Translations under genes and position numbers: made by a program
Notes under the pieces: generated by a model
What the model was told of the DNA's origin: nothing
What the model saw: the letters and a program-made list of their open reading frames with translations, nothing else
The model's database searches: none
Assembly: GCA_937951625.1 (NCBI GenBank)
Contig: CALFBP010000054.1
Location: 1 to 53,507, forward strand
Reading direction: 5' to 3'
From: an uncultured Thermoguttaceae bacterium
GTDB lineage: Bacteria; Planctomycetota; Planctomycetia; Pirellulales; Thermoguttaceae
Length of the DNA stretch: 53,507 nt
Shown: one piece after another, positions 52 through 44,447 of the stretch
Numbering within the stretch: the stretch's first letter is position 1
How the letters are laid out: every line of letters begins with the position of its first letter

Positions 52-135
<84 letters not shown>

Positions 136-16235: not shown

Positions 16236-16730
16236 ATGACGCGGACGGAGGAGCTGATGGAGATGACGGGAGAAGTGGTGCAGGGAACGGAGGTTTTCGC
16301 CGATTTCGAGCAACGTTGTCAAAAAGTCCTCGAACAAGCGAATGCTTTGATTCAATCAGCTCCGGATTGGGTCACGTTCTACCAAGAGGTTCTTGGTGTC
16401 AAGGGCGTTGTGCGGAGGAGCTTTCCGAGCAAAGAGCAACTCGCGGCCTTTAAGAAAACGGAAGCCTACGACAAGATTCAGTGGATGCTTTGCCAACTTC
16501 GCATTCGATCGAATTACGCTCATCTCCGAAAAGAGTCCACCAAGGTGATCACGGTTCGGCTACCGAAAACTCTTCACGCTGCCCTTTTAACAGAGGCCCG
16601 CGAGAAAGCCACCAGCGTCAACAAACTTTGCATCTCGAAATTGCTTCAATTCATTGATGAGGATCTGGTGCCTCCGAGTCACCCAGAAGAAGAGGAATAC
16701 GAGAAGACGGATCACGAAGCCGGCCTATAA
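16236..16730 (+). CDS. Ribbon-helix-helix (CopG/HicB-like) domain protein
   Basis: 164 residues from the ATG at 16236, with GAGGGA 9 nt upstream; a GTG at 16221 is the alternative. The N-terminal part (to about 100) is alpha-helical with no fold I recognise; it contains FYQEVLGVKGVVRRSFPS and KTEAYDKIQWMLCQL. Residues about 103-140 (KVITVRLPKTLHAALLTEA then KATSVNKLCISKLLQFI) form a typical strand-helix-helix DNA-binding motif like the HicB C-terminus. The tail is acidic. It may be an autoregulator or antitoxin, but no toxin partner is adjacent. Its stop codon lies inside the 3' end of the oppositely oriented rnpB gene. Confidence 0.75.
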   Translation: MTRTEELMEMTGEVVQGTEVFADFEQRCQKVLEQANALIQSAPDWVTFYQEVLGVKGVVRRSFPSKEQLAAFKKTEAYDKIQWMLCQLRIRSNYAHLRKESTKVITVRLPKTLHAALLTEAREKATSVNKLCISKLLQFIDEDLVPPSHPEEEEYEKTDHEAGL

Positions 16731-17177
16731 GCCGGGTTCTGTCCCCGCTACTTGAGCGGGCGATGGCCATTTATCTAGGACGCCGATTGCTCGGCGACTC
16801 GAGCGGTCTACCCGGAAGTCGAAAACGGACCGGGCCAGTCCGCGGAACCCGACGTGCGAACCCGTCGCCCGTCGGTTCCCTCCCTCCTATTTGACCTTGC
16901 TCCGGGTGGGGTTTGCCTAGCCAGGCCGGTCACCCGACCTGCTGGTGAGCTCTTACCTCACCGTTTCACCCTTACCGCGCCGACGGCCACCAGGGTTTCC
17001 CCCGGTGCACCATCTGGCGAGGCGGTTTGCTTTCTGTTGCACTTTCCCTAGCCTTGCGGCCGGTGGGCGTTACCCACCACCCTGCCCTACGGAGCCCGGA
17101 CTTTCCTCTCGCCCCAAGGCCTTACAGCCGGTGTGGCGGCCCTTGCCTTCGGAGCCAGCGGCCATCTGGCCGGCTTC
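16716..17177 (-). ncRNA. rnpB: RNase P RNA, bacterial type A
   Basis: The catalytic RNA of RNase P, which trims 5' leaders from tRNA precursors. The ends are set by the P1 helix: GAAGCCGGCC at the 5' end pairs with GGCCGGCTTC at the 3' end (about 462 nt). Read on the minus strand, conserved regions appear in order: GAGGAAAGTCCGGGCTCC, GGGCAGGGTGGTGGGTAACG, AGGGAAAGTGCAACAGAAAG followed by CAAACCGCC, GGTAAGGGTGAAACGGTGAG, and near the 3' end TAGATAAATGGCC and GACAGAACCCGGCTTAT. A TACTAT hexamer 7 nt before the 5' end may be its -10 box. Protein frames intrude at both ends (see findings). Confidence 0.97.
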
Positions 17178-42163: not shown

Positions 42164-44029
42164 ATGTGTGGAATTGTCGGTTGCGTGGGCGCCTCGTCCG
42201 TGGTGGATTTCCTATTAACGGGACTCCATCGTTTGGAGTATCGGGGATACGATAGTTCGGGAATCGCGGTTCTCGGCGGGGCGGAGGAGATTCAAGTCGT
42301 CAAGTCGGCTGGCCGTATCAGCCGTCTCGAAGCCTTGTTGAACGAACGACCGATCACAGGGCGGATCGGGATCGGCCATACCCGTTGGGCTACGCACGGT
42401 GCCGCCACGGACATCAACGCCCATCCCCACTTGGGCGGTGATGGCGAAGTGGCTGTAGTCCACAACGGGGTGATCGAGAACTACCAGCCGCTCAAAACCC
42501 GGCTCGAAGCGCAAGGCTACGTTTTCCGCTCGGCGACGGATAGCGAAGTCATCGCCCATCTTATTGCGGAGGCGTTGCGGCGAACTGCGTTCCGCGGGTC
42601 GAGGGACCACGATCATCATGCCTTAATTGGGGCGGTCCAAGAGGCCTTGTTGCAACTGCACGGAACCTACGGTCTGGCCGTGTTGTTCCGGCATCATCCC
42701 GACGTGATTGTCGCGGCGCGACTGGGAAGCCCCCTGGTGGTCGGGGTTGGCGATGGCAAGCACTTCGTGGCCAGCGATGTCTCTCCCTTGGCCGGACACA
42801 CGGACAAAATCGTCTATCTCGCCGACCACGAGCTTGCGTTGGTAACGGCGGATTCGCTTCGGGTGGTGCATCGTGACCGGGGCGCGGTGACTCACAACAT
42901 CCACGTCCTCGACTTGGCGTCTGACGATGTGGAATTGGGGGGCTATCCCCATTACATGCTCAAGGAAATCTTTGAGCAGCCCGATTCGATTCGCAACGCC
43001 CTTCGCGGCCGCTTGGACCACGAGGCGGCCACGGCGAAATTGGGCGGCTTGAATCTCTCACCCCAGCAGCTCCGCCAAGTAAGCCGCATGGTAATCACCG
43101 GCTGCGGGACGAGCTGGCACGCCGGTTTGGTCGGCGAGCATCAGATCGAGTCGCTCGCACGGATTCCCGTGGAAGTGGAATACGCCAGCGAACTCCGCTA
43201 TCGTAATCCGCCCATGGATCCCAACACGCTGGTATTCGCTATCACCCAAAGCGGTGAAACGGCCGACACGCTGGCGGCGCTCCGGGAGATGCGGCGCAAG
43301 GGCTTTCCGACATTGGCGATCTGCAACGTCGTCGGCAGCACTATCGCCCAAGAGGCCGACGGCGGCGTTTATCTGCACGCTGGGCCTGAAATCGGCGTGG
43401 CGTCGACCAAGGCCTTTACCTCGCAATGCGTCGTCTTGGCCCTGGTGGCGCTCTATTTTGGCCGCTTGCGGCACCTGAGTTTCGAGGTCGGGCTTCGCAT
43501 CCTGCGAGAGTTGGAAGACCTCCCCGAGCAGGTGGCCCGCGCCTTGACCACTGACGCTCAAGTTCGCCAAATCGCCCTGAAATACGCAGAGTGTAAAAAC
43601 TTCCTCTACTTGGGCCGTCAGTTCAATTTCCCCACGGCCCTGGAGGGGGCATTGAAGCTCAAGGAGATCAGTTACATTCATGCCGAGGGTTATCCAGCCG
43701 CGGAAATGAAACACGGCCCGATCGCCTTGGTCGATTCCCAAACGCCCAGCGTGTTTCTCATGCCCCGGGACACGGTATATGACAAGGTGATGTCCAACTT
43801 GCAGGAAATCAAGGCCCGCGGCGGACCTGTTATTGCCGTGGTTTGCGAAGGCGATCGCCAAGCGGCAGCAGCGGCCGACGATGTAATCGAGGTACCGGCG
43901 GTGGCCGAGTACCTTCAGCCGATCGTGTCGATCATTCCTTTGCAGCTTCTGGCTTATCACATCGCCGTCGCCCGGGGTTGCGACGTCGACAAGCCTCGCA
44001 ACCTCGCCAAGAGCGTGACCGTCGAGTAG
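42164..44029 (+). CDS. glmS: Glutamine:fructose-6-phosphate aminotransferase (isomerizing)
   Basis: 621 residues; GGAGG precedes the ATG. It makes glucosamine-6-phosphate, the entry point for peptidoglycan and lipopolysaccharide amino sugars. The N-terminal class II glutaminase domain begins MCGIVGCVG with nucleophile C2 after Met removal, and has GIGHTRWATHGAATD and VVHNGVIENY. Two SIS sugar-isomerase domains follow (about 300-435, 470-610), with ITGCGTSWHAG, FAITQSGETADTLAAL, and the conserved end RNLAKSVTVE. The cytoplasmic enzyme is often controlled at mRNA level: by a ribozyme in Firmicutes or by GlmY/GlmZ small RNAs in enterobacteria. The predicted small RNA gene 280 nt downstream is therefore of interest. 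Confidence 0.98.
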   Translation: MCGIVGCVGASSVVDFLLTGLHRLEYRGYDSSGIAVLGGAEEIQVVKSAGRISRLEALLNERPITGRIGIGHTRWATHGAATDINAHPHLGGDGEVAVVHNGVIENYQPLKTRLEAQGYVFRSATDSEVIAHLIAEALRRTAFRGSRDHDHHALIGAVQEALLQLHGTYGLAVLFRHHPDVIVAARLGSPLVVGVGDGKHFVASDVSPLAGHTDKIVYLADHELALVTADSLRVVHRDRGAVTHNIHVLDLASDDVELGGYPHYMLKEIFEQPDSIRNALRGRLDHEAATAKLGGLNLSPQQLRQVSRMVITGCGTSWHAGLVGEHQIESLARIPVEVEYASELRYRNPPMDPNTLVFAITQSGETADTLAALREMRRKGFPTLAICNVVGSTIAQEADGGVYLHAGPEIGVASTKAFTSQCVVLALVALYFGRLRHLSFEVGLRILRELEDLPEQVARALTTDAQVRQIALKYAECKNFLYLGRQFNFPTALEGALKLKEISYIHAEGYPAAEMKHGPIALVDSQTPSVFLMPRDTVYDKVMSNLQEIKARGGPVIAVVCEGDRQAAAAADDVIEVPAVAEYLQPIVSIIPLQLLAYHIAVARGCDVDKPRNLAKSVTVE

Positions 44030-44125: not shown

Positions 44126-44147
44126 TTCTGCTTCAGTTGAAGCAGAA
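44126..44147. promoter_or_regulatory. Perfect 22-nt palindrome, candidate enhancer-binding-protein site
   Basis: Arms TTCTGCTTCA (44126-44135) and TGAAGCAGAA (44138-44147) flank GT. Centred about 170 nt before the predicted start of the sigma-54 transcript, it is where upstream activator sites for sigma-54 enhancer-binding proteins usually lie. It could instead be a hairpin in the glmS 3' region, but no T-run follows. Confidence 0.6.
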
Positions 44148-44225
44148 TGCTACATCGGCTCGATTGCCGGAGTCCTCCGCCAGAATGGAATTCTTTTCGC
44201 CGAAAGTGTGCTGTAAGTCTTTATT

Positions 44226-44279: not shown

Positions 44280-44296
44280 TTGGCACGCAGTATGCA
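44280..44296 (+). promoter_or_regulatory. Sigma-54 (-24/-12) promoter
   Basis: T-TGGCACG-CAGT-ATGCA matches the consensus YTGGCACGNNNNTTGCW with one mismatch (ATGCA for TTGCA). The invariant GG and GC are exactly 10 nt apart (44282-44283 and 44294-44295). Transcription would start near 44306-44307. Confidence 0.65.
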
Positions 44297-44306
44297 TTTC
44301 AATAAC

Positions 44307-44447
44307 ATCGTAAGCGACCCAACAAGGTCGTGTGAGTAAGGCTGGCCCGTGGGGCCTCTGACGTTTGTTTGCCGAATGGGTACCTTGCCCTTACCATTCG
44401 GTTTAGCCATCGCGGGAGATGGCTCGTCAAAGGCCCCCACTTTTTTT
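44307..44447 (+). ncRNA. Predicted structured small RNA downstream of glmS
   Basis: From the predicted start the RNA has a 5' hairpin, GCGACC (44314-44319) with GGTCGT (44326-44331). A three-way junction follows. The closing stem is GTGGGGCCT (44349-44357) plus TGACG (44359-44363) with CGTCA (44425-44429) plus AGGCCCC-C-CAC (44431-44440). Arm 2 is CCGAATGG (44372-44379) with CCATTCGG (44394-44401). Arm 3 is AGCCATC (44405-44411) with GATGGCT (44418-44424). Seven T residues (44441-44447) follow the closing stem, so it is also the terminator. The arm-2 loop holds CCC and the arm-3 loop GGG, which could kiss. I recognise no known RNA family. Confidence 0.55.
44349..44447 (+). terminator. Intrinsic terminator formed by the closing stem of the small RNA
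   Basis: The outer stem GTGGGGCCT/AGGCCCC(C)CAC has 9 pairs with one bulged C. TTTTTTT follows at once. The loop is unusually large because it holds the two internal hairpins. Confidence 0.65.

Follow-up and report, generated by a model that had tools for sequence, protein, structure and literature searches.

Bacterial small RNAs (sRNAs) of the sigma-54 promoter class include those of the CrcZ and NrsZ type in Pseudomonas, and the Qrr RNAs are known to depend on Hfq. GlmY of Escherichia coli, which is linked to QseE/QseF, is an sRNA with a sigma-54 promoter that requires an enhancer-binding protein (PMC7073468, excerpt). In Vibrio, the region of Qrr1, a sigma-54 sRNA linked to LuxO and SypG, contains a SypG site (TTCTCANNNTGMDWN) and a LuxO site (TTGCAWWWTGCAA), with a CANNNTG or CAWWWTG core (PMC10162802, excerpt). 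In this work we analysed a stretch of 53,507 nucleotides of DNA (the window; contig CALFBP010000054.1 of assembly GCA_937951625.1) from an uncultured Thermoguttaceae bacterium of the order Pirellulales, phylum Planctomycetota, in which a candidate sRNA gene of 141 nt is preceded by a putative sigma-54 promoter and, farther upstream, by an enhancer-like dyad. The predicted gene and its promoter are strongly supported by comparison with relatives, and the proposed structure and upstream dyad are supported as well; from these features we infer its transcription, its activation, the role of one hairpin loop (the P2 loop) as a seed and a base-pairing mode of action. Our findings indicate that this is a real RNA family that is itself new and mechanistically belongs to a known kind, the sigma-54-dependent sRNA, with a clear regulatory signature. 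The features of the locus, in window positions, are as follows.

44126..44147, no strand assigned: perfect 22-bp inverted repeat (TTCTGCTTCA gt TGAAGCAGAA), which overlaps the enhancer-like dyad and adds a half-site
44138..44154, no strand assigned: enhancer-like dyad TGAAGCAGAATGCTACA, 143 bp upstream of the -24 element, 13 of 14 positions matched, predicted site of an enhancer-binding protein
44281..44296, plus strand: predicted sigma-54 -24/-12 promoter TGGCACGCAGTATGCA, 11 of 12 matches, which predicts +1 at 44307
44307..44447, plus strand: predicted small RNA gene, 141 nt from the predicted +1 through the end of the U-tract
44314-44319/44326-44331, plus strand: 5' hairpin, 6 pairs, one of them G.U
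44342..44349, plus strand: conserved 5' segment CUGGCCCG before the closing stem, with a possible alternative local pairing with GGGCC
44349-44363/44425-44440, plus strand: P1, the closing stem and also the terminator stem, 14 pairs with one C.A mismatch and one bulged C
44372-44379/44394-44401, plus strand: P2 hairpin, 8 pairs
44380-44393, plus strand: P2 loop GUACCUUGCCCUUA, constant, likely seed
44405-44411/44418-44424, plus strand: P3 hairpin, 7 pairs
44441-44447, plus strand: terminator U-tract, seven T directly after the closing stem, with a T-run also in relatives

Like GlmY (PMC7073468, excerpt), the candidate appears to be a sigma-54 sRNA; it also has envelope genes close by, kdsA in this case, but it has another fold, belongs to a different phylum and, in relatives, was not found next to glmS. 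Unlike GlmZ, it shows no convincing pairing with the glmS leader, as the complementarity to the start region of this gene (z = -2.48) is equalled by that of an unrelated gene of the window (z = -2.47). With Qrr1 it shares, besides the predicted promoter class, upstream sites of the CANNNTG type, here GTCTCANNNTGAGAC and TGTAKCANNNTGMTACA, which are similar to the SypG and LuxO sites (PMC10162802, excerpt). Its fold and sequence, however, differ from those of Qrr, and Hfq was found in none of 60 genomes by a search that was positive in 5 of 14 control genomes. A scan with Rfam 15 at the gathering score gave no match over the RNA, the window yielding only RNase P and a tRNA, and a permissive threshold, applied to the window and to ten relatives, brought up nothing of note at the RNA. 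The library includes the GlmY/GlmZ and Qrr families, none of which matched over the RNA when the whole of it was used; CrcZ and NrsZ are unlike the present RNA in sequence and structure, and no Rfam match relates it to them. The statement of a preliminary description of this DNA that it knew of no fitting family agrees with the Rfam scan. Among the matches listed in the open-access literature there was no description of such an RNA, and none of an sRNA in Pirellulales. The terms small RNA, sRNA and non-coding are absent from the main text of a survey of sigma-54 regulons that includes Planctomycetia (PMC12316311, excerpt), and in a table of sRNAs the entry for the PVC group is the number 8 (PMC9029176, excerpt). 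The candidate Rhodopirellula-1 motif resembles the present RNA in being named for a genus of the same order and listed for Planctomycetes; it differs, as far as its table row alone allows it to be set apart, in being listed also for Proteobacteria and apparently cis-regulatory, with a 'y' in the column that we read in this sense (PMC2864571, excerpt).

The preliminary description had proposed a novel small RNA of four nested helices (6, 14, 8 and 7 pairs) whose closing stem is followed at once by seven U. All of these elements are present, and the minimum-free-energy fold of the window RNA has the same four-helix architecture (z = -2.9, with 3 of 200 dinucleotide shuffles as good). The start that it gave, 44307, coincides with the +1 predicted by the sigma-54 element. 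Taken as a whole, that reading is well supported for a novel structured RNA closed by its own terminator stem, and not supported for the proposed link with glmS and for the suggested kissing contact between CCC and GGG in the two arm loops. The kissing contact was dropped: all 85 distinct members of the family have GCCC in the region of the P2 loop, but only 13 carry GGG in that of the P3 loop. The full-length RNAs fold with a mean z of -4.6 (n = 79 members), 77 of the 79 lying below -2. The leaders of relatives are variable in sequence and length and usually form hairpins, with a mean z of -2.2 over 77 leaders, one of them from an RNA of 462 nt with no near T-run that was left out of the 79-RNA fold set; the window leader has a z of -1.5. 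The resulting build, in which the terminator stem is also the helix that closes a three-way junction, is unusual.

The comparative evidence for this structure comes from two alignments. By blastn, the region after the 5' hairpin is matched in relatives (best E 9e-20), and 28 of 30 copies were aligned without structure guidance (alignment A1), leaving out L010, whose contig ends within the RNA, and L024, whose start motif was missed. Among the 24 consensus pairs of A1, 14 show changes on both sides. A larger alignment (A2), with 90 matches from 90 chosen sources, L024 again included, holds 85 distinct members, in which 96.3% of cells are paired and 22 of the 24 pairs show a compensatory change; its covariation score, 0.514, was attained in none of 500 shuffled alignments, which gave 0.191, and slid controls stayed at or below 0.113. 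A2 was fitted to a covariance model, which leans to structure, and its members are related; A1 was unfitted and shows the same helices. In A2, the closing stem P1 has 97.7% of cells paired and 10 of 12 pairs changed on both sides, and all five modelled pairs of P3 are changed on both sides. Compensatory changes in relatives, which the preliminary description had named as a check of its proposal, are therefore strong.

A first covariance model, built from 28 copies, found the RNA in 177 of 246 Pirellulales genomes, and a second one, built from 90 matches, in 182 of 246, or in 88 of 113 when counted by genus. These scans of the order and the phylum used stricter filters, which lose weak matches. 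From our reading of the listing, the RNA occurs in 19 of 20 sampled families of the order, the family without a match (f6) being represented by one genome. With the second model, three genomes had two matches and all other positive genomes a single one. Genome G062 carries two copies, L139 and L140, the latter lower-scoring and with a shortened P2 loop; G092 and G219 gave two matches each with the second model. Within the family of the window (f1), the genus groups g9, g18, g20, g21, g22, g26 and g30 have no convincing copy, with marginal matches only in G190 (g18) and G219 (g26), and nearly all of them have RpoN (G179 gave none); the absence of the RNA in these groups is an apparent loss. A sample of 294 genomes of the phylum included five of the order, four of them with strong matches, and gave seven other hits, all weak; no convincing copy was found with the covariance model in the 289 genomes outside Pirellulales. 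The hits outside the order (six weak ones with the first model and seven with the second, E 2.9e-6 to 0.009, in eleven distinct places) were attributed to chance: those inspected were either bare stems with a T-run or, in f36, a stem and T-run enclosing an unrelated insert; L192 and L193 lacked any T-run, and L192 carries an isolated CTTGCCCC. In a collection scan with the core motif, 34 of 35 named contigs were Planctomycetota by title (Pirellulales, Thermoguttaceae, Pirellulaceae, Blastopirellula marina), and the sole hit outside this phylum, on a Rothia plasmid, was taken as chance, the rest of the RNA being missing.

In the oriented loci, a TGGCAC-N5-TGC element precedes the RNA. Scored over 12 positions of TGGCACGNNNNTTGCA within 95 nt of the core, with dinucleotide shuffles as control, the predicted promoter reaches at least 9 of 12 in 73 of the 85 loci against 5.1 expected, and at least 10 in 48 against 0.65 expected. 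Five loci below 8 were included in a longer scan of 400 nt, which was uncontrolled and in which a score of 9 is weak: L081, L092 and L107 have a 10 at 148-286 nt, and L024 has a weak 9 at 99 nt. In the same scan L149, with a score of 8 in the first one, has an 11 at 105 nt. If real, the distant elements of L081, L092 and L107 would imply a much longer 5' leader, and that of L107 would contain a tandem TAGACAGCTAATTAAG repeat. RpoN is encoded in 233 of the 246 Pirellulales genomes, that of the window included, and as it is nearly universal the co-occurrence of RNA and RpoN was discarded as uninformative.

Word counts in the upstream regions led to two dyads sharing the consensus TGTMKCANNNTGMKACA, with single-letter shuffles as control. 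Among 79 loci with a sigma-54 site of at least 8 and 260 nt of upstream sequence, 60 have a dyad score of 11 or more out of 14, where dinucleotide shuffles would give 4.65, an excess that is partly by construction, since the consensus was drawn from the scored loci and the shuffles ignore kinship, and this counts against the reading proposed below. The placement of the dyads adds support for them: by our count from the listing, the distance upstream of the -24 element is 124-160 or 196-244 bp for 53 of the 60, with 21 of these at 134-150. A regular-expression motif scan of the 85 loci, a weak one, revealed no gene of an enhancer-binding protein adjoining the RNA. Each of the exact dyad patterns occurs in 4 of 60 genomes, and stands at the RNA gene in one and two of these, respectively; three of the five other dyad genomes were checked for reading frames and showed no common function. 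Perfect TGTAKCANNNTGMTACA dyads away from the RNA are found at L182 and L183 (G020), L180 (G029) and L179 (G007), with an imperfect second copy beside the perfect one in G020 and G007. Because dyads occur away from the RNA, and G020 and G029 have no RNA match, the regulator that would bind them may have other duties besides the RNA gene.

Based on these features, we hypothesize that an enhancer-binding protein at the dyad, about 140 bp upstream, would activate sigma-54 RNA polymerase at 44281-44296. Transcription would begin at about 44307 and end at 44447, the 14-pair closing stem and the U-tract serving as terminator, and the product of about 140 nt would consist of the 5' hairpin and a three-way junction that presents the P2 loop (UACCUUGCCCUU). 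Most likely, the RNA would act in trans without Hfq, its C-rich P2 loop pairing with G-rich stretches of several mRNAs. Overall, we consider it reasonably probable that the gene encodes an Hfq-independent trans-acting sRNA, controlled by sigma-54 and an enhancer protein, with the C-rich P2 loop as seed. The loop contains UUGCCC in 79 of the 85 members, and this motif is predicted to be open, with a mean probability of being unpaired of 0.95 (n = 75) against 0.38 for the whole RNAs. The 5' segment contains GGCCC in 74 of 85 members, and UGGCCCG has a mean probability of being unpaired of 0.60 (n = 63). In family f8 (ten copies, L126-L135), the 5' CUGGCCCG segment is lost, GGCCC being gone from most of the copies, the closing stem is seemingly longer and the P2 loop is kept. 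A constant loop on covarying stems looks like a base-pairing seed or a protein-binding loop; known sRNAs pair through C-rich loops.

Several results weigh against this reading. Such a constant loop would equally fit the binding of a protein or a ligand. The target tests, which covered only the perfect loop complement, kdsA and nine genes of the window, were negative: AAGGGCAAGGTA, the 12-nt complement of the f1 loop, is not enriched, with 26 matches in 20 of 36 genomes against 43 for the control pattern, and 10 of the 26 are the RNA gene itself on the other strand, the other 16 lying elsewhere. As a target, kdsA was rejected, the mean z over 57 loci being 0.23 for P2 and -0.02 for the 5' segment, and the complementarity to glmS was unconvincing, as mentioned above. 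In addition, 64 of the 246 Pirellulales genomes have no RNA match although RpoN is nearly universal, 12 of the 85 loci have no sigma-54 site of at least 9 within 95 nt of the core, and among the seven loci scanned over 400 nt L111 has no site above 8. Base pairing without Hfq is nevertheless the mode of action that we favour over sequestration of a protein, at about even chances.

Sequestration would mean that a sigma-54-controlled sRNA holds an RNA-binding protein, as GlmY holds RapZ (PMC7073468, excerpt), and does not pair with mRNA. This precedent, the strongly conserved three-way junction with its constant loop, the failure to find Hfq in the 60 genomes and the lack of enrichment of the loop complement all agree with a decoy. 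Nevertheless, there is so far no candidate protein, and a short, constant, C-rich loop is typical of a base-pairing seed, so that we regard a decoy as rather unlikely.

Much less credit is due to a role in cis, as a terminator, attenuator or riboswitch of a neighbour, either the 3' end of glmS or a downstream gene. In the window, glmS (TIGR01135) ends at 44029, upstream of the RNA, with kdsB (TIGR00466) beyond it; 277 nt separate the glmS stop codon from the RNA, which has a terminator at its end, and a GGCCC-GGGCC pairing could compete with the terminator stem. The preliminary description had considered a trans-acting RNA for glmS or another mRNA, or a ligand-sensing RNA. However, a tblastn search of the loci of 29 relatives (up to about 1.5 kb on each side) gave no glmS, and the complementarity was not significant among the nine window genes, so that glmS was discarded both as target and as host gene. 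In 33 of 53 loci the closest downstream frame with blast support runs on the opposite strand, and downstream genes vary, no single one recurring in most loci; for these two reasons a ligand-sensing RNA acting in cis is unlikely, and they argue instead for a free-standing non-coding gene, which the sequence suggests has its own terminator. The RNA also appears to have its own promoter, and the competing local GGCCC/GGGCC hairpin, tried as an antiterminator, was rejected because its covariation is not above that of shuffles (187 of 500 reach it). Downstream in the window, a gene read as a helicase converges on the RNA from 47093 to 44562. The upstream side of the window differs from that of relatives: across the 85 loci, a kdsA frame, recognized by a sequence motif and with KdsA family identity checked on one copy, lies upstream and divergent in 57, with 213 to 4917 nt between its start and the core. 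In 16 of 44 loci the frame closest upstream is that of a lipid kinase-like gene, and a single-linkage cluster containing this gene extends over 36 of 85; the one copy tested matched lipid kinase models with scores under their cut-offs. Elsewhere in the window are a bacterial class A RNase P RNA (16712-17177, minus strand, 288 bits) and a tRNA-Leu (gag) (52-135, plus strand).

An RNA that sequesters CsrA/RsmA in the manner of CsrB or RsmZ is highly improbable, as only 31 of the 85 members have GGA in the region of the P3 loop and the aligned copies contain no array of GGA hairpins. A diverged housekeeping RNA such as 6S, suggested by the nearly order-wide, single-copy and structured nature of the gene, is hardly credible given a three-way junction in place of a long bulged hairpin, no RF00013 match over the RNA, the predicted sigma-54 promoter, the 64 genomes without a match and a separate 6S-like match in the genome (C36:50183-50394, 36.3 bits, below the cut-off of 46.4, which 4 of 40 genomes exceed).

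Returning to the trans-acting sRNA that we favour, a broader proposal can be advanced more tentatively, and we hold it somewhat less probable than its negation: the RNA could be the founding, order-wide, Hfq-independent master sRNA of Planctomycetota, under sigma-54 and enhancer control, with a terminator that is also the junction-closing helix and a single constant, C-rich loop serving as seed for mRNAs in general, connected by location with Kdo and lipid envelope genes, and a convergent counterpart of GlmY and Qrr. Post-transcriptional control in Planctomycetota has been little explored, and no sRNA regulon is described for the phylum among the literature matches listed. An RNA found in 19 of 20 sampled families, with a readable promoter, a putative enhancer dyad and a constant loop, offers a concrete and inexpensive entry point to it. 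If the proposal is true, it would place a sigma-54-controlled sRNA, apparently free of Hfq, far from Proteobacteria, and would provide a case in which the stem of the terminator also closes a branched RNA.
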